DNA of 64,000 bases from Arthrobacter alpinus. GTDB lineage: Bacteria > Actinomycetota > Actinomycetes > Actinomycetales > Micrococcaceae. Made by a program: the position numbers and the translations under genes. Of the stretch, positions 16,106-61,401 are shown one piece after another. Location: the NCBI RefSeq assembly GCF_001294625.1, contig NZ_CP012677.1:2108001-2172000 (forward strand), written 5' to 3'. Positions within the stretch are counted from its first letter, which is position 1. Every line of letters begins with the position of its first letter. The notes beneath the pieces were generated by a model. It had not been told where the DNA came from, did not search any database, and saw only the letters and a program-made list of their open reading frames with translations.

Positions 16106-16983
16106 TGGGGATCACCTGTTTCTGTTGGTCCGACGTCGTTCTTCTGATGATCCTGCTTGTGACCTTGGGAGCCGCGCTCCTCAAATCTGCCATGGGTTGA
16201 CTGGTGGTGGGCCGCGGGGTCCCAGCGCTGGGCCGGGGCCTTCTCGCCGCGCAGCTCCTCCAGCATGGCCGTAATGGCCACCATAATGACATCGGTCATG
16301 GCCTCCAGGGTGGCTTTGTCGGCCGCATGCCCGGCGAAGGCGCTCAGGTCCACAGGGTCACCGACCACGACCTTCACCTTCTTGCGCGGGAAAATCTTGA
16401 AGCCCTTGGCATAGCGGGGGAACACTTCCTGCGCCCCCCAATGCACCACGGGGATGACCTTGACACCTGTACCCAGGGCCAGCCTGGCCGCCCCCGTGCG
16501 CCCTTTCATGGGCCACAGATCCGGATCACGGGTAAGGGTGCCCTCGGGATAGACCACCACCGCGCCGCCGCCGTCGAGCACCTTCTGGGCAAAGGACAGC
16601 GACGTGCCGGCCCCTGCTCCGCTGCGCTCAACAGGAATCTGCTGTGCGCCGCGCAGGATGGGTCCCAAGATCGGGGTCTTGAATAAACCGTCCTTGGCCA
16701 GGAAGTGCGGCATGACGTTTTGGTTGTAGAGCAGGTGACCGACCACGATCGGGTCGATTTCGGTGCAGTGGTTGGGCACCACAATGAAGCCCTCGTCGAC
16801 CGGCAGTCGGTCAAGGCCATACCATTCCTTGCCCATGAGCAGGGTGATCGCGGTCCGGGCGACGCCGGCCACAAACGCAAACACCATCCAGGTCCGCAGA
16901 CTCATACCAACGGGCTTGAAGGGGCGCTTGCGTGCTGGCTTGCGCCGGCCGGGCAGGTCCTGTCCGGAAACGTCAGCGGCCAC
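16102..16983 (-). CDS. plsC: 1-acyl-sn-glycerol-3-phosphate acyltransferase family protein
   Basis: This 293-residue protein has the acyltransferase H-x4-D motif in VPNHCTEIDPIVV (about residues 71-77) and the second motif VYPEGTLTRDPDLWPMKG with the glycerol-phosphate-binding EGT. A hydrophobic segment near residues 27-45 would attach it to the membrane. The C-terminus is long and polar (rich in H, Q and R). The start is a GTG, 4 bp after murA. Phosphatidic acid synthesis fits the gpsA neighbour, but the exact acceptor is not proven by sequence. Confidence 0.88.
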   Translation of the reverse strand: MAADVSGQDLPGRRKPARKRPFKPVGMSLRTWMVFAFVAGVARTAITLLMGKEWYGLDRLPVDEGFIVVPNHCTEIDPIVVGHLLYNQNVMPHFLAKDGLFKTPILGPILRGAQQIPVERSGAGAGTSLSFAQKVLDGGGAVVVYPEGTLTRDPDLWPMKGRTGAARLALGTGVKVIPVVHWGAQEVFPRYAKGFKIFPRKKVKVVVGDPVDLSAFAGHAADKATLEAMTDVIMVAITAMLEELRGEKAPAQRWDPAAHHQSTHGRFEERGSQGHKQDHQKNDVGPTETGDPQ

Positions 16984-16987
16984 GACC

Positions 16988-18325
16988 CTACCTCAAGACT
17001 TTACTGGACTCGTGCACGTCAAAATCGGCGCCCAACCCGTCAAGTTTGGCCGTGAACTTCTCATAGCCTCGGCTGATGATGTCAATGCCCGTCACGGTGG
17101 AGGTGCCTTGGGCGGCCAAGGCGGCGATCATGTGACTGAAACCGCCGCGCAGGTCGGGGACGTCGATGGTGGTTCCCGTCAGAGGGGTGGAGCCGGAGAT
17201 GACTGCCGAGTGGATGAAGTTCCGTTGGCCGAAGCGGCAGGGGACGCTGCCCAGACACTCGCGGTGGAGCTGGATGTTGGCACCCATCCTGGTCAGCGCG
17301 TTGGTGAAGCCAAACCGGTTCTCGTAGACGGTCTCGTGCACGATCGAGACACCCTCGGCCTGGGTCAGGGCCACCACGAGCGGCTGCTGCCAGTCCGTCA
17401 TGAACCCCGGGTGGACATCGGTCTCCAGCACTAGCGGCTTCAGGTCCCCGCCCTTGTGGTAGAAACGGATGCCGTCGTCGTGGATGTCCATGCCGCCACC
17501 AATCTTGCGGAAGGTGTTCACGAACGTCATCATGTCCCGCTGGCTGGCGCCTTCGACGTATATGTCACCGCCAGTGACAAGCGCGGCAGACGCCCAGGAT
17601 GCGGACTCGTTGCGGTCGGGCAGGGCGGTGTGCACGTAGCCGCTGAGTTCGTTCACGCCTTCAATGCGGATGGTCCTGTCGGTCTGCACCGAGATGATGG
17701 CGCCCATTTTTTGCAAGATCGCAATGAGGTCAATGATCTCCGGCTCCGTGGCCGCACCGCTGAGCTCGGTGATGCCTTCGGCCCGGGTGGCGGAGAGCAG
17801 CACTTGTTCGGTGGCGCCAACACTGGGGTAGGGCAGACTGATCTTGGTGCCCTTGAGCCCGTGAGGGGCGGAAATGAGGATGCCTCCGCCGGTCTTGTCC
17901 ACCACAGCACCAAATTTGCGCAGCACCTCGAGGTGGTAGTCGATGGGTCGGTCACCGATCTTGCAGCCGCCCAGGTCCGGGATGAACGCGTGACCAATGG
18001 AATGAATGAGAGGTCCGCACAGCAGGATGGGGATGCGGGAGTCACCGGCGTGGGTGTTGATCTCCGAGCTGGAGGCAGTCTTGGCGTTGGCCGGGTCCAG
18101 TGTCAGGTCCCCCGTGACGGGGTCCTTCACCACCGTGACGCCGTGAAGTTGCAGCAACGAGGTCACAACCTCCACATCCTTGATCTCCGGGACATTGCGC
18201 AACGTGGAGGGCGCATTGCCCAACAATGCGGCCACCATGGCCTTGGGGACTAAGTTCTTAGCACCACGTACCTGGATGCGTCCCTTGAGCGGGACACCGC
18301 CACGGACCGTCAGAATCCTGCTCAT
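16988..18325 (-). CDS. murA: UDP-N-acetylglucosamine 1-carboxyvinyltransferase
   Basis: MurA carries out the first committed step of peptidoglycan synthesis. The N-terminal GRIQVRGAKNLVPKAM contains the conserved Lys-Asn pair. The active-site loop reads PDLGGCKIGDRPID, so the catalytic cysteine that fosfomycin alkylates is present, unlike the Cys-to-Asp form of mycobacteria. About 445 residues is slightly longer than the E. coli enzyme. The ATG at 18325 is better spaced from AAGGA than the in-frame GTG at 18331. It starts the murA-plsC-gpsA-ddl operon. Confidence 0.95.
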   Translation of the reverse strand: MSRILTVRGGVPLKGRIQVRGAKNLVPKAMVAALLGNAPSTLRNVPEIKDVEVVTSLLQLHGVTVVKDPVTGDLTLDPANAKTASSSEINTHAGDSRIPILLCGPLIHSIGHAFIPDLGGCKIGDRPIDYHLEVLRKFGAVVDKTGGGILISAPHGLKGTKISLPYPSVGATEQVLLSATRAEGITELSGAATEPEIIDLIAILQKMGAIISVQTDRTIRIEGVNELSGYVHTALPDRNESASWASAALVTGGDIYVEGASQRDMMTFVNTFRKIGGGMDIHDDGIRFYHKGGDLKPLVLETDVHPGFMTDWQQPLVVALTQAEGVSIVHETVYENRFGFTNALTRMGANIQLHRECLGSVPCRFGQRNFIHSAVISGSTPLTGTTIDVPDLRGGFSHMIAALAAQGTSTVTGIDIISRGYEKFTAKLDGLGADFDVHESSKVLR

Positions 18326-18536
18326 CTTCACCTAATCCTTCGTTCCACCACCACCCGCCGAACCTTCGCCGGGCCTCAGTCAAGCATAGTTTCTCCCCAC
18401 TAGATGCTGAAATGGCTGTCCCTGCTGGAGGCTGGCGGGCAGCGAACGCGCGGTTTCCGCGGGAGCAGGATCCGGCGTCGTCCCTTGGCCCAGGCGTATC
18501 CGGGCGCCCTGGCCGGAACCAAATGCGTCCCACCGC
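18326..18536. other. murA upstream region
   Basis: About 210 bp that should contain the murA operon promoter. I see no gene. It ends where the palindromic repeat cluster begins. Confidence 0.4.
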
Positions 18537-18559
18537 GGGGGCCGTTGTGGTGATTCGCC
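18537..18559. repeat. Half-copy of the palindromic repeat
   Basis: The sequence gggggccgttgtggtgattc matches the left arm and first loop bases of the full palindromes at 18583 and 19761. No matching right arm follows. It lies in direct orientation exactly 50 bp before the same bases of the next copy, so it is either a decayed element or a partial duplication. Confidence 0.8.
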
Positions 18560-18582
18560 ACCGCTATGAATCGGTTCCGCAA

Positions 18583-18650
18583 CAGAGGGGGCCGTTGTGG
18601 TGATTCGACGCTGGCCGGCCAGGGGCGAGTCACCACAACGGCCCCCTCTG
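18583..18650. repeat. Large palindromic repeat, copy upstream of the nuclease-like gene
   Basis: A perfect 21-bp inverted repeat (arms 18583-18603 and 18630-18650) encloses a 26-nt centre that itself contains the palindrome ctggccggccag. The arms include ggccgttgtggtga. The whole unit is nearly the same as the one at 19761-19826, in the same orientation. No T-run follows, so it is not a standard terminator; it looks like a REP/REPIN-type interspersed element. Confidence 0.9.
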
Positions 18651-18782
18651 AATGCCCTGTCGTACCCGGAACAGGTGGCGACCCGCACCCTTGCCTCCTC
18701 CACAGGCCCGGGGTGCCCGGTACTTTCCACAATCGCCACGATTCAAGATGCCAGGCCCGTTCCCCGGATGGATCATCGAAGC

Positions 18783-19748
18783 ATGACAGTTTTCCAGGTG
18801 CCGCCGTTTATCACCGCGGACAGCAAATATGAGGACGAATACTCGGCCCGAAGGCTTTCTCGCCAGACTGCCTCCGGCAAACTTGTCAGGGTACGCCGGG
18901 GACTTTATCTGCCAGCTTCGGTGTGGGAAAGCATGAAGCCGTGGGAGCAGGAACGGATGCGGATCCAGGCAGTTGATGTGCTGGCAAGCCGTCATCCGAT
19001 TTTTGCCCGCGAGTCCGCAGCTCTGGTCATGGGACTGCCACTGATTCATACGCCGCGCCAGGTTCAAACGGTCGTGGCCCCGGGCCTGCGCGGGGGCCAA
19101 AGCAGCAAGGGGGTGCGCCGCACCGGCTCGGTGGAGGGCGATCCCGTACCGTGGACCATGTTTGGGCTCAAGGTCACCCCGCCGGCGGAGACCGCACGCG
19201 ATCTGGCGCTGCAGCTGCCACTGTCCCAGTCGCTGCCCGCCATGGACAAGTTGATGCAGCGCGAGATCCTGCCGGGCTCTCCTCACAATGTAAATCTGAT
19301 CTTCACTGCTGACCATGTGCGTGCCTCAGCTGCATTGCTTCCCAATGGCACGCAGCGGCGCAGGGTGGAAAGAGTTCTGGAGGTGGCGGACGGGCTCTCG
19401 CAGTCGGCGGGTGAGTCATGGAGCCGTGCCATCATGATCCAACACGGCTTCCCACGACCGGTTTTGCAAAATTCGTACTACGACGACCGGGGTCTCATCG
19501 GCTATCCGGACTTTGAATGGAAGGAATTGAAGATTCTTGGCGAATTCGATGGCTTCGAGAAATACTCAGCGCAGCGCTTCCTCAAGGGTAAGACCCCGTC
19601 CCAGGTGGTGGTTGAGGAGAAAAAGCGGGAGGACCGGCTACGAGCGCTCGGCTACAAAGTGGTTCGATGGGTGTGGGCAGACCTCCAGGACCCACAGCGG
19701 CTCATTGGCCTGTTGCACGCGGCCGGCCTGCCGTCGCGAAATCTGTAG
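18783..19748 (+). CDS. AbiEi-like winged-helix protein with C-terminal PD-(D/E)XK-like (DUF559-type) domain
   Basis: The N-terminal part (SARRLSRQTASGKLVRVRRG, then LYLPASVW) has the form of the winged-helix domain of AbiEi-type antitoxins; FARESAALVMGLPLI follows. The C-terminal part (YPDFEWKELKILGEFDGFEK, EEKKREDRLRALGYKVVRW) fits the Vsr/DUF559 nuclease-like fold with D, E-x-D and E-K-K-R positions. The protein has 321 residues. No toxin gene (AbiEii nucleotidyltransferase) is adjacent, so a toxin-antitoxin role is doubtful. An in-frame ATG at 18768 is an alternative start. Large palindromes flank the gene, and a broken paralogue lies at 58.9 kb. Function unknown. Confidence 0.75.
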   Translation: MTVFQVPPFITADSKYEDEYSARRLSRQTASGKLVRVRRGLYLPASVWESMKPWEQERMRIQAVDVLASRHPIFARESAALVMGLPLIHTPRQVQTVVAPGLRGGQSSKGVRRTGSVEGDPVPWTMFGLKVTPPAETARDLALQLPLSQSLPAMDKLMQREILPGSPHNVNLIFTADHVRASAALLPNGTQRRRVERVLEVADGLSQSAGESWSRAIMIQHGFPRPVLQNSYYDDRGLIGYPDFEWKELKILGEFDGFEKYSAQRFLKGKTPSQVVVEEKKREDRLRALGYKVVRWVWADLQDPQRLIGLLHAAGLPSRNL

Positions 19749-19760
19749 CGTCAACGAGGT

Positions 19761-19826
19761 CCGGGGGGCCGTTGTGGTGATTCGCCGCTGGCCGGCCAGG
19801 AGCGGATCACCACAACGGCCCCCCGG
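19761..19826. repeat. Large palindromic repeat, copy downstream of the nuclease-like gene
   Basis: Perfect 20-bp arms (19761-19780 and 19807-19826) enclose a 26-nt centre with ctggccggccag. It begins 12 bp after the stop codon of the nuclease-like gene. Arms and centre match the 18583-18650 unit at nearly every position and in the same orientation, so the gene sits between direct copies of a palindromic element. Confidence 0.9.
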
Positions 19827-19853
19827 GTGTGCTCCGGCTGTAATCGGGGCAGC

Positions 19854-19881
19854 AAAAAGCCGGCCCTTCCCGGGAGGGATG
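19854..19881 (-). terminator. Rho-independent terminator of leuCD
   Basis: Arms aaagccgg (19856-19863) and ccggcttt (19874-19881) enclose a short inner loop; on the minus strand the stem ends in CCGGCTTTTTGC. It lies about 105 bp after the leuD stop codon. Confidence 0.75.
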
Positions 19882-19985
19882 GACCGGCTTTCCTGTGTGC
19901 TGAGGCCACGCACCCCTGGGGCCACACACCCAGTGGTCCACAGCAGAAGCCGCACGAACGGCTGAAGTTGGGGAGGGCTCGGGGA

Positions 19986-20585
19986 CTAGCTTTTCGCCGG
20001 CAGCGTGGTGGGCTTGTAGGTCGGACGCGTGGCCTCGAACGCGGTGATGGCCGGTTCGTCGCGCAGCGTCAGGCCAATGTCATCCAGGCCTTCCAGGATG
20101 CGCCAGCGGGTGTAGTCGTCAATCTGGAACGGGGCCACAACAGTGCCCGCCGTGACCATTTTGGCCACCAGGTCCACAGTGACCTCCGTCCCCGGAGCGT
20201 TCTCCAGGACTTTCCAGATCAGCTCAATGTCGTCCTGGGCCACCTCGGCGGCCACCAAGCCTTGTTTGCCCGAGTTGCCGCGGAAAATGTCGGCAAAGCG
20301 TGAGGAGAGCACGGCCTTGAAGCCGTAGTCTTTCAGCGCCCAAACAGCATGCTCGCGGGAGGAACCGGTTCCGAAGTCGGCGCCTGCCACCAGCACGGAG
20401 CCAGCGCTGTACGGCTCCTGGTTGAGGATGAATTCGGGGTTTTTGCGCCAGCTGGAGAACAGGGCGTCCTCGAAGCCGGTACGGGTGATCCGCTTGAGGT
20501 ACACGGCCGGGATGATCTGGTCGGTATCAACGTTGCTTTGGCGCAGCGGGACACCAATACCGGTGTGGGTGGAGAACTTGTCCAT
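19986..20585 (-). CDS. leuD: 3-isopropylmalate dehydratase small subunit
   Basis: LeuD pairs with LeuC to isomerise 2- to 3-isopropylmalate in leucine synthesis. Visible features are [20 protein letters not shown] and the swivelling-domain motif [20 protein letters not shown]. At 199 residues it has the normal size. It starts 12 bp after leuC with a GGAG ribosome site, so the two genes form an operon. Confidence 0.96.
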
Positions 20586-20597
20586 GGTGTGAGCTCC

Positions 20598-22133
20598 TTA
20601 CGCTACGGTCTGGGCGGATGTGGTCTCGACAGGCTCGACCACCGGCAAGAGGTCCGACGGCGAGCTGAGGGTGCCGCGAACAGCCGTGGCGGCTGCGACG
20701 ACGGGTGAGACCAGGTGGGTGCGCCCGCCCTTGCCCTGGCGGCCTTCAAAGTTGCGGTTGGACGTCGAGGCGCAACGCTCCCCCGGTTCCAGTTGGTCAG
20801 GGTTCATACCCAGGCACATGGAGCAACCGGCAAAACGCCACTCGGCACCAAAGTCGACGAACACCTTGTCCAGGCCCTCGGCTTCGGCTTCCAGGCGGAC
20901 GCGGGCGGATCCGGGCACCACCAGCATGCGGATGTTGGGGTCCTTTTCGCGGCCGCGGATGATGTCCGCGGCGGCGCGCAGGTCCTCGATGCGGGAGTTG
21001 GTGCAAGAGCCCAGGAAAACCGTGTCGACACGGATGTCCTTCATGGGGGTGCCTGCTTCGAGGTCCATGTAGGCCAGTGCCCGTTCGGCGGCGGCCTTGG
21101 CGTTTTCGTCGCCGAAGTCCTCCGGGAACGGAACGGCGTCGTTCAGGGAGACGCCCTGCCCCGGGTTGGTGCCCCAGGTGACGAAGGGCTCCAGGGTGTT
21201 TGCGTCTAGGAACACCTCGGCGTCGAATTCGGCGTCGTCCTCTGTTGTCAGGGACTTCCAGTACTCAACGGCATCATCCCAGTCCGCACCCACCGGTGCA
21301 TGAGCGCGGCCCTTGAGGTAAGCAAAGGTGATCTCGTCCGGGGCGATCATCCCAGCACGGGCGCCCGCCTCGATGGACATGTTGCACACGGTCATGCGGG
21401 CGTCCATGGACAGTGCACGGATGGCCGATCCACGGTATTCGAGCACGTAGCCCTGGCCACCACCGGTGCCGATCTGGGCGATGATGGCCAAGATGACGTC
21501 CTTGGAGGTCACGCCGGGGCGCAGCGTGCCCTCGACGTTGATGGCCATGGTTTTGAACGGCTTCAGCGGCAGTGTCTGGGTGGCCATGACGTGCTCCACC
21601 TCGGAGGTGCCAATACCAAAAGCGAGGGCGCCCACTGCACCGTGCGTTGAAGTGTGCGAGTCTCCACAAACCACCGTCATACCCGGCTGGGTCAGGCCCA
21701 GCTGCGGGCCCACCACATGCACGATGCCCTGTTCGGCGTCGCCCAGCGAGTGCAGGCGCACACCGAATTCGGCACAATTGTTGCGCAGCGTCTGGATCTG
21801 GGTGCGGGAGGTAAGGTCCGCGATCGGCTTGAAGATGTCCAGCGTGGGGGTGTTGTGATCCTCCGTGGCAATGGTCAGATCCGGGCGGCGCAATGGCCGA
21901 CCGGCCAGCCGCAAACCCTCGAAGGCCTGGGGCGAGGTGACCTCATGGATCAGGTGAAGGTCGATGTAGAGAAGGTCCGGCTGTGCGGCATCGCCGTCAC
22001 CCTCGCCCTGCTTGACAACGTGGTCGCGCCATACTTTTTCAGCGAGCGTCTTCGCGGTCCTTCGCGCAGTCGTCGTCGAAACGGTCGGCAGCTTTGCTGA
22101 GTCGTGCGCTTCGGGTGTGGTTGCCTCGGTCAC
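20598..22133 (-). CDS. leuC: 3-isopropylmalate dehydratase large subunit
   Basis: LeuC carries the [4Fe-4S] cluster of isopropylmalate isomerase. The cluster cysteines appear in [13 protein letters not shown] and in [13 protein letters not shown]; substrate-site segments include [20 protein letters not shown]. The 511-residue chain has a 30-residue polar N-terminal extension and a Ser/Thr-rich C-terminal tail. The GTG start has AAGGGAG six bases upstream. It is divergent from an NdgR-like regulator, as in other actinobacteria. Confidence 0.96.
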
Positions 22134-58694: not shown

Positions 58695-58760
58695 AAATGA
58701 TCCCGATCCCGCTTTCTGATCCCGGAATTTCTGGATCAGAAAGCGGGATCGGGATCATTT
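58695..58760. repeat. Perfect 28-bp inverted repeat with 10-nt loop
   Basis: Arms 58695-58722 and 58733-58760 pair perfectly; the core is gatcccgatcccgctttctg. The left arm begins with aaa and the right arm ends in ttt, so it could be a bidirectional terminator for the ABC operon. The stem is unusually long for that. Its sequence is not related to the palindromes at 18.6 and 19.8 kb. Confidence 0.9.
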
Positions 58761-58920: not shown

Positions 58921-59717
58921 ATGCACATGGACAATCCACGCCTCATCCTCAGTTCCGATCTGGGCATCGCCGGCCAAGATCCTCGGACTCTGACCAAGCT
59001 CAGCCCGAAGGCACAATATGGACTGCATGCGGAGGCATTCCGCAGCCTTACGCCATCCGAGCTGGTATTCTCCTATGCCACGGCTGCGTTGTTATGGGGA
59101 CAATGGATTGTGGGAACGCCCTCTGATTTGCATGTCAGGACGGAAGTAACAACGGGCGGACAGAGTCGCAACGGCGTACGGCGATGAATCGGGGCCAGCA
59201 GTGATGGCATTCTTCGATGCGGTTGGGGACACCGACTGCCCTCAAGGAAAACCACTGAGGAAAGAGGAACTCGTTGCCGCTGCACAACGGCTGCCCAGCC
59301 ACGCCGCCAGGGCCCGAACACTTGCAGTCATCAAGTTTTCTTCTGCTAGGTCCGGTTCGGCTGGCGAGTAGCTCAGTCGGGCCAAGATGCACCAGCTTGG
59401 ATTTCCCGCTCCCGTCCTTCAGAAGAAATTCACGCTGCGAAATGGCAGCGAAGCCTTCGTGGACTTCTGGTTTAAGGAACTCAACCTGGCCGGTGCATTC
59501 GATGGCAACGGCAAATATCTGCCTGCTGACTTCGGCGGCGGCCTGTCCATGACGGATCGGCTGTGGCGGGAGAAGCAACGCGAGGACTCCATCTGGCCCC
59601 AAGGCGTTCGATTTGTTCGATGGACCTGTCAGGAAGTCAACAACCGGACCCTTCTCGAACGGCTGCTTCGGCAAGCTGGACTGCGCCAGATCACCACTTG
59701 GCGGCAAAGCAGCGCGG
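58921..59717 (+). pseudogene. Broken paralogue of the AbiEi-like/DUF559-type gene at 18.8 kb
   Basis: The first fragment (ATG at 58921 or 58927, ending in a stop at 59187) contains LVFSYATAALLWGQWIVGTP and GGQSRNGVRR, matching the same region of the intact gene. The second fragment is in another frame from about 59201, has an in-frame TAG at 59369 within SAGE*LSRAKMHQLGFPAPV, and continues to DFWFKELNLAGAFDGNGKYL and WREKQREDSIWPQGVRFVRW, ending LLERLLRQAGLR near 59690. The intact protein reads SAGESWSRAIMIQHGFPRPV and WKELKILGEFDGFEK at these places. One frameshift and one nonsense codon are clear; the end abuts metG. Confidence 0.85.
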
Positions 59718-61342: not shown

Positions 61343-61401
61343 AAGAACGACGACGACGGCCCCCACATTGAGCGGGCGAAGGGGCCGTCGTCGTCGTTCT
61401 T
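61343..61401 (-). terminator. Terminator hairpin of serA
   Basis: Perfect 21-bp arms (61343-61363 and 61381-61401), built on a cgacgacga triplet run and ggccc, enclose a 17-nt loop. On the minus strand the stem ends GTTCTTGTTACG, 14 bp after the serA stop. The T-run is short. Confidence 0.7.

Follow-up and report, generated by a model that had tools for sequence, protein, structure and literature searches.

The closest described counterpart of the locus presented here is the REP/RAYT system (REPtrons, REPINs), in which palindromes flank the gene in pairs, the gene evolves rapidly, and gene and repeat are correlated (PMC2817692). Two protein families are also relevant. At its own promoter, genuine AbiEi binds to inverted repeats that reach 23 bp (PMC3985639), and the MTES_1575 domain is described as having a Vsr fold (PMC3710099).

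The window, a stretch of 64,000 nucleotides from Arthrobacter alpinus (contig NZ_CP012677.1, positions 2,108,001 to 2,172,000 of the forward strand), contains a gene enclosed by two large palindromes. The components of this arrangement are the following:

18537..18557, plus strand: half-copy, a single palindrome arm (GGGGGCCGTTGTGGTGATTCG), lying 50 bp 5' of the arm in palindrome 1
18583..18650, no strand: palindrome 1, 68 bp with its outer CAGA/TCTG pairs (60-bp family core at 18587-18646), 132 bp 5' of the ATG
18783..19748, plus strand: gene for a protein of 321 aa with an N-terminal AbiEi-type winged helix and a C-terminal Vsr/DUF559-like region, nuclease-like by paralog alignment
19761..19826, no strand: palindrome 2, 66 bp (60-bp family core at 19764-19823), 12 bp past the stop codon, with leuD next

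The gene at 18783-19748 is the only one between the palindromes, which are 93% identical across 60 nt and each fold, with DNA parameters, into a single hairpin at about -37 kcal/mol (z scores -10.9 and -9.7; 0 of 200 shuffles do as well). The preliminary description, which had reported two palindromes of about 66 bp around one AbiEi-like/DUF559-type gene, is confirmed (66-68 bp), as is its half-copy further upstream, whose arm (18537-18557) and that of the full copy (18587) have starts exactly 50 bp apart; the original observation is real and broader than first noted. Both units were also said to have the same orientation. They are present, but as palindromes their orientation carries little meaning, and polarity can be read only from the half-copy. 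The view that they are not terminators agrees with the lack of any terminator-like site or T-run at 18300-20000, both window palindromes included, and an Rfam search of 16500-21000 gave no match. With up to one mismatch, the arm GGCCGTTGTGGTGAT has 37 matches in the focal genome (G000) against 4 for its reversed control, so that the window palindromes are not a product of chance.

The start codon is most likely the ATG at 18783 and not one inside the palindrome, since all 15 aligned orthologs share a methionine at this position. The immediate neighbours are read as murA and leuD from their Pfam domains (EPSP_synthase and Aconitase_C). In the protein, Pfam finds AbiEi_4 alone, just under the cut-off of 25 (23.2 bits, E 7e-5), and PADLOC assigns residues 10-167 to AbiEi (E 3e-5). 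The orthologs match AbiEi_4 in 14 of 15 cases (E up to 0.1), the remaining one having no Pfam match. Taken alone, the C-terminal half has no hit in Pfam, nuclease models included, the orthologs likewise give no DUF559-type match, and NCBIfam gave no match for five proteins. In a 19-sequence family alignment, however, it aligns with paralogs that match DUF559 above the cut-off (L136, L137) or MTES_1575 below it (L003, E 4e-7), and it is because of this alignment that the region is called nuclease-like. The invariant columns include E211, D243, D256 and G257; E254 is variable, being K in G007 and Q in two paralogs. By analogy with PD-(D/E)XK enzymes, the invariant residues are predicted to be catalytic. 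Solved structures include no significant match (best PDB entry 3hrl_A, E 0.44). No relatives of the protein were confirmed in viral contigs or in a scan of contigs from named genomes, and a plasmid scan returned two records with weak matches.

Homologs at 53-67% identity are present in 16 of the 22 relatives searched within the genus, a truncated one in G013, and only more distant ones in G004, G009, G014, G015 and G017. Among the 17 relatives with a homolog, murA is inside the fetched flank in 12. The gene evolves fast compared with its neighbours, the adjoining murA and leuD being 89-98% identical to those of the relatives against its own 53-67%. A recent insertion into the murA-leuD gap was rejected because orthologs occupy the gap in many relatives; the gene has long been established in the genus at this place. 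The earlier idea of a small self-mobilising element is therefore supported only in part, although five relatives carry the unit at another locus (see below).

A relaxed hairpin scan places a palindrome within 400 bp of the gene in all 17 close orthologs (16 relatives and the focal genome), against 4.5% (either side) and 0.035% (both sides) of random positions in a null taken, like that for the paralogs, from one genome (an evenly spaced 400 kb, a tenth of G000), with hairpin thresholds that were set after the first cases had been viewed and that differ among the ortholog and paralog scans. Being related by descent, these orthologs are not 17 independent events, and more independent evidence comes from the differing arms and from the paralogs than from this count. 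Three copies fall outside the 17: the truncated one of G013 has no palindrome in a stricter scan, and the second murA-leuD copies of G001 and G022 have one upstream palindrome and none at threshold, respectively. Palindromes are found on both sides at six of the 14 ortholog loci with 400 bp on each side (relaxed scan), and were also seen on both sides in G001, G022 and G021 (stricter scan and pattern matches) and in G002 and G019 (by eye). In G007, G005 and G010 only an upstream palindrome was seen.

The architecture of the palindromes is kept, at about 60-66 bp and often starting with GGGGG. The arm is species- or clade-specific and usually common to both flanks in one genome. At the gene it is GGGGGCCGTTGTGGTGATTCG in G000, GGGGGTAGTTATTACC in G011, GGGGGTAGCTAATACT in G001/G022 and CAGGATGACGATATGG in G021, and arms are identical or almost so within the pairs G011-G016, G001-G022 and G018-G021. 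At murA-leuD alone about ten arms can be told apart by eye, and those of some relatives include GTAG within the stem. A Mantel comparison of arm and protein distances (r 0.49; r 0.59 for residues 1-45) was set aside, relatedness being uncorrected and the arms hand-picked.

The upstream palindrome lies 112-213 bp 5' of the start codon in 15 of the 17 orthologs. This position would suit an operator by which the AbiEi-like protein represses itself, the dispersed copies forming its regulon, and genuine AbiEi does repress its own promoter and bind inverted repeats there (PMC3985639). A matching palindrome, however, often lies also 3' of the gene, and together with the genomic placement of the other copies, described below, this makes an operator an unlikely explanation.

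The family is not confined to murA-leuD. A profile search of G000 gave 19 matches, merged by hand into 14 family loci including the focal one, of which six (2126783, 3199858, 1458404, 975899, 2446231 and 2800502) are flanked by a palindrome on each side at distances of 11-212 bp, two have one on a single side and six have none. At random G000 positions, palindromes lie within 1.5 kb on both sides in 1.2% and on any side in 21.6% of cases. The preliminary description had asked whether copies correlate with this gene family, and regarded scattering without enrichment near it as contrary to its proposal; the palindromes are in fact both scattered and strongly enriched there. The loci with palindromes on both sides mostly have arms of their own, and the two sides share their arm, by eye, in five of six cases (not at 2800502). 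The arm beside 2446231 has, with up to two mismatches across 23 genomes, 55 matches in G000, 4 in G005, 2 each in G018 and G021 and none in the 19 others. The six palindrome-free loci comprise two full-length open frames (3745015 and 769774), the rest being broken, fragmentary or weak partial matches. Within the window, a 66-bp palindrome at 58695-58760 (28-point hairpin) adjoins a decayed family member at 58993-59689, with in-frame stops and fragments.

Outside the genus, a palindrome lies within 700 bp of eight of the nine best homologs (L086-L088 and L092-L097), five of them (L087 and L093-L096) having palindromes on both sides; at L088 none was found within that distance. Three distant homologs within the genus have palindromes on both sides (L091), on one (L089) and on neither (L098). 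Among control loci, all from the genus, 0 of 11 have a palindrome within 700 bp, a twelfth (L129) having been left out as itself a G021 repeat. That two scattered palindromes happen to flank an unrelated gene, an event to which 15 full focal-family copies genome-wide would give some room, has a negligible probability, as the association is repeated in orthologs and paralogs and is contradicted as chance by both scans.

In the evenly spaced 400 kb of G000, six of 12 large palindromes (score at least 18) match arms of family genes (shuffle p<0.01) and six do not. Those that fit no family gene at this p threshold include L162 6149-6218, L161 6158-6223, L148 9174-9226 and L160 15039-15100, which perhaps represent families whose gene was lost or missed. 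The window itself has a further large palindrome at 61343-61401 (21 points, 59 bp).

The palindrome-gene-palindrome unit has occupied two places in the genus, one of which bears a lone palindrome elsewhere. In G011, G016, G001, G022 and G006 a family gene has on one side a gene for an aromatic amino acid lyase, probably hutH; on the other side, where the contig reaches, the first four have an IclR-type regulator gene. In the tree these five lyase-site genes group together as a clade (support 77) that falls within the murA-locus genes, and G001 and G022 have a second gene, 53% identical, at murA-leuD. The IclR-lyase site of G000 and G007 carries a lone palindrome and lacks the gene. In seven other relatives, two of them without an adjoining lyase gene, neither palindrome nor gene was found there at threshold, a threshold that missed the known G016 pair, so that imperfect palindromes may be overlooked. 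The lone palindrome could be what was left when the gene between direct copies was lost, or it could be a resident palindrome that the gene entered elsewhere; both fit.

The half-copy of the window belongs to a recurrent geometry. In four genomes, extra half-sites within 100 bp (up to 3 mismatches in 15) accompany 19 of 42 full copies, and by raw count 14 of these, that of the window included, lie at exactly 50 bp with the polarity of the nearest arm; the other distances are 31, 40, 40, 51 and 52 bp. G012 has a tandem row of half-sites about 51 bp apart 5' of its gene. Since the 50-bp geometry is found with two different arm sequences, it suggests that a protein complex reads arms at this spacing. 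In another part of the window, two half-sites of the second arm family (CGTTGAGGGG) at 2830-2849 and 2865-2884 lie in a 35-bp direct repeat.

Arms are dispersed in several genomes, to different degrees, and pattern searches find each one most abundant in the genome or clade to which it belongs. Exact matches to GGCCGTTGTGGTGAT across 58 genomes number 26 in G000, 9 in G005, 2 in G013, 1 each in G008 and G021 and none in the rest. Across 23 genomes, GGGGGTAGTTRTTRCCA, the G011/G016 arm, has 23 matches in G011, 20 in G016 and 1 each in G003, G006 and G018, its reversed control having 5 in G004, G006 and G019 together. The G021 arm GGATGACGNKATGGAY, with 21 matches in G021 and 1-8 in each of the other 22 genomes, among them 7 in G018, shows a looser pattern with a real background, as those other counts indicate. 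Dispersal is not universal: the G001 and G022 arm has 5 and 4 matches, all but one at the gene, and the G002 arm has 3, all at the gene, with one more in G003. In G002, GGATGCCGGTATGGAT occurs seven times among the matches listed and is possibly another dispersed arm family. Of 17 stretches obtained by scanning named genomes, 11 belong to three Arthrobacter genomes (E3 7, S7A_St_54 3, H35-D1 1) and carry nearly the gene-side arm of G007/G008; six are from unrelated organisms, share the short core alone and are treated as chance.

The 15 full copies of the focal family in G000 keep pairing in 90.2% of cells, with a covariation of 0.096 against 0.058 when shuffled (0 of 500); by a weaker measure six pairs changed on both sides, a number reached in 50 of 500 shuffles. 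In all 15, pairing begins at the first base of the 60-bp core, which leaves no GT(A/G)G head unpaired. The outer flanks differ among the copies. An inverted target duplication, hinted at by self-complementary outer flanks in individual copies, was rejected, pairing being at background about 3 positions beyond the core. No copy overlaps a gene call (simple codon model) in five copy sets with 69 rows, some of them overlapping pairings of one site.

In G000, the copies lie mostly at 3' ends of genes. The 15 focal sites comprise seven convergent, six tandem and one divergent gap and one of unresolved class, and the 23 sites of the second family 14 convergent, nine tandem and no divergent gaps; gaps of at least 60 bp in the window are six convergent, 18 tandem and seven divergent. 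This placement speaks against operators, less strongly in G011, G016 and G021, where a smaller fraction of sites is convergent (3 of 11, 2 of 9 and 5 of 11). Together with the very stable folds, it would fit bidirectional terminators or mRNA-protecting hairpins selected at gene 3' ends, which are nevertheless highly improbable: the two window copies have no terminator-like T-run, copies also lie 5' of the gene, and the arm sequence itself, beyond stem stability, is conserved among the focal copies of G000.

The joined flanks of eight focal sites were also compared with 17 relatives. Nine comparisons at three sites were read, of which eight (five at one site, three at another) show junctions without a palindrome; the ninth aligned on one side only. 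The search also gave many other matches, some of which have long stretches of unrelated DNA in the gap. The eight empty junctions count against both the operator and the terminator or mRNA-hairpin explanations. Extragenic, palindromic and species-specific repeats with empty sites are also what would be expected of passive MITE- or REP-like repeats moved by another transposase (e.g., RAYT), the gene being merely among them. This, too, is improbable, to about the same degree as an operator. Members of one protein family each have their own arms, all 17 scanned orthologs have a palindrome, the focal copies are paired from the first core base without the GT(A/G)G head, and a target-site duplication of at least 3 bp, a trait of MITEs of DDE transposons, was found in 0 of 42 copies, with 0.5 expected by chance.

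G005 has seven full copies of the focal arm, yet its own murA-leuD gene has other arms. Three of the seven, one of them on the leuD side, are at the same sites as copies in G000, so that some G005 copies are old, and these shared sites count against a purely mobile reading. The leuD-side palindrome (L211 7915-7974) adjoins leuD and differs from the upstream arm of the local gene, and is perhaps an orphaned copy. The same gene pair in G016 and G000 (L203 and L026) has in its gap a palindrome whose arm is of the type proper to the species, at different distances from the genes, reflecting either re-use or rewriting of the site.

The gene-palindrome association, the clade-specific and mostly matching arms, their dispersal in several genomes, some empty sites, the occupancy of two loci and the 50-bp geometry are demonstrated. 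The explanation preferred for them, with a probability of roughly 0.6, is that a family protein and its cognate arm form a coupled pair, and that in active genomes arms are copied to extragenic places in a RAYT-like manner. The gene product would be a sequence-specific DNA-binding protein, combining an AbiEi-type winged helix with a Vsr/DUF559-like restriction-fold region, and the palindrome arm of about 21 bp would be its cognate site. By likeness to genuine AbiEi on inverted repeats, the AbiEi-like domain may read the arm, and the nuclease-like domain may nick or cut the palindrome as duplex, cruciform or single-stranded hairpin, after which repair of the break would copy it to new places. 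Family genes would be retained between cognate palindromes, gene and arm changing together. With an active pair, palindromes alone or modules of half-site, 50 bp and palindrome would be copied to extragenic sites, and occasionally the whole unit would relocate, or the gene would be lost and leave a lone palindrome. The suggestion in the preliminary description of a REP-type system whose product handles the hairpins fits well with the recurring gene-specific palindromes and dispersed arms; handling of the hairpins by the protein is what we infer.

More tentatively, and with somewhat less than even odds, a large family of Vsr/DUF559-type nucleases with AbiEi winged helices may constitute a repeat-driving class apart from HUH enzymes, DDE enzymes and site-specific recombinases. 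Each would maintain, rewrite and spread its own large palindromes, with several pairs per actinobacterial chromosome, and turnover of arm specificity would drive the rapid evolution of the protein. If so, REP-like repeats arose at least twice, with unrelated enzymes, a restriction-type fold is tied to the spreading of repeats, proteins labelled 'AbiEi antitoxin / DUF559' gain a function, and half of the sampled large palindromes of G000 (six of 12) are accounted for. The many natural gene-arm pairs within one genus, with about ten arms by eye at murA-leuD, would be a ready set for studying how protein specificity changes.

Among known systems, AbiE type IV toxin-antitoxins share with the present protein the N-terminal winged helix, here detected weakly (AbiEi_4 below the cut-off; AbiEi in PADLOC). 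They differ in that the present gene has murA and leuD as neighbours, a nuclease-like C-terminus and palindromes on both sides and genome-wide; no AbiEii toxin was found among murA, leuD and three further genes scanned with Pfam. As to the Vsr/DUF559 and MTES_1575 nucleases, it is the paralogs in the alignment that match DUF559 or MTES_1575; the focal protein and its orthologs give no significant match, but acidic residues are aligned. We know of no Vsr/DUF559 or MTES_1575 family member tied to dispersed palindromes, and none of the open-literature matches listed links AbiEi, DUF559 or MTES_1575 genes to such repeats. The CGTC REPs are likewise palindromic extragenic families, and TIRYT elements have inverted repeats around a transposase gene (PMC3733652); unlike the present families, CGTC repeats have no dedicated enzyme gene, and TIRYTs encode HUH enzymes.

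Compared with REP/RAYT, the present protein is an AbiEi winged helix with a Vsr/DUF559-like region (Pfam finding only AbiEi_4 and no Transposase_17), whereas RAYT is a Y1 (HUH) transposase, and because the enzyme class differs the present system is not assigned to REP/RAYT. The palindromes are also symmetric, at about 60-66 bp, and those of the focal family lack a GT(A/G)G head that is unpaired and lies beyond the palindrome at one end; 15 full copies carry the focal arm, whereas REPs often exceed 100; and a half-site lies 50 bp from many copies. A gene flanked by two genome-repeated palindromes is found in G000 and several relatives, G001/G022 and G002 showing little or no dispersal, and the repeats are extragenic and species-specific. 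The resemblance is nevertheless broad, since REP/RAYT, too, is described as having a gene between two cognate palindromes that evolves faster than its neighbours, and species-specific repeats, dispersed extragenically, that keep their palindromicity while the sequence changes (PMC2817692).
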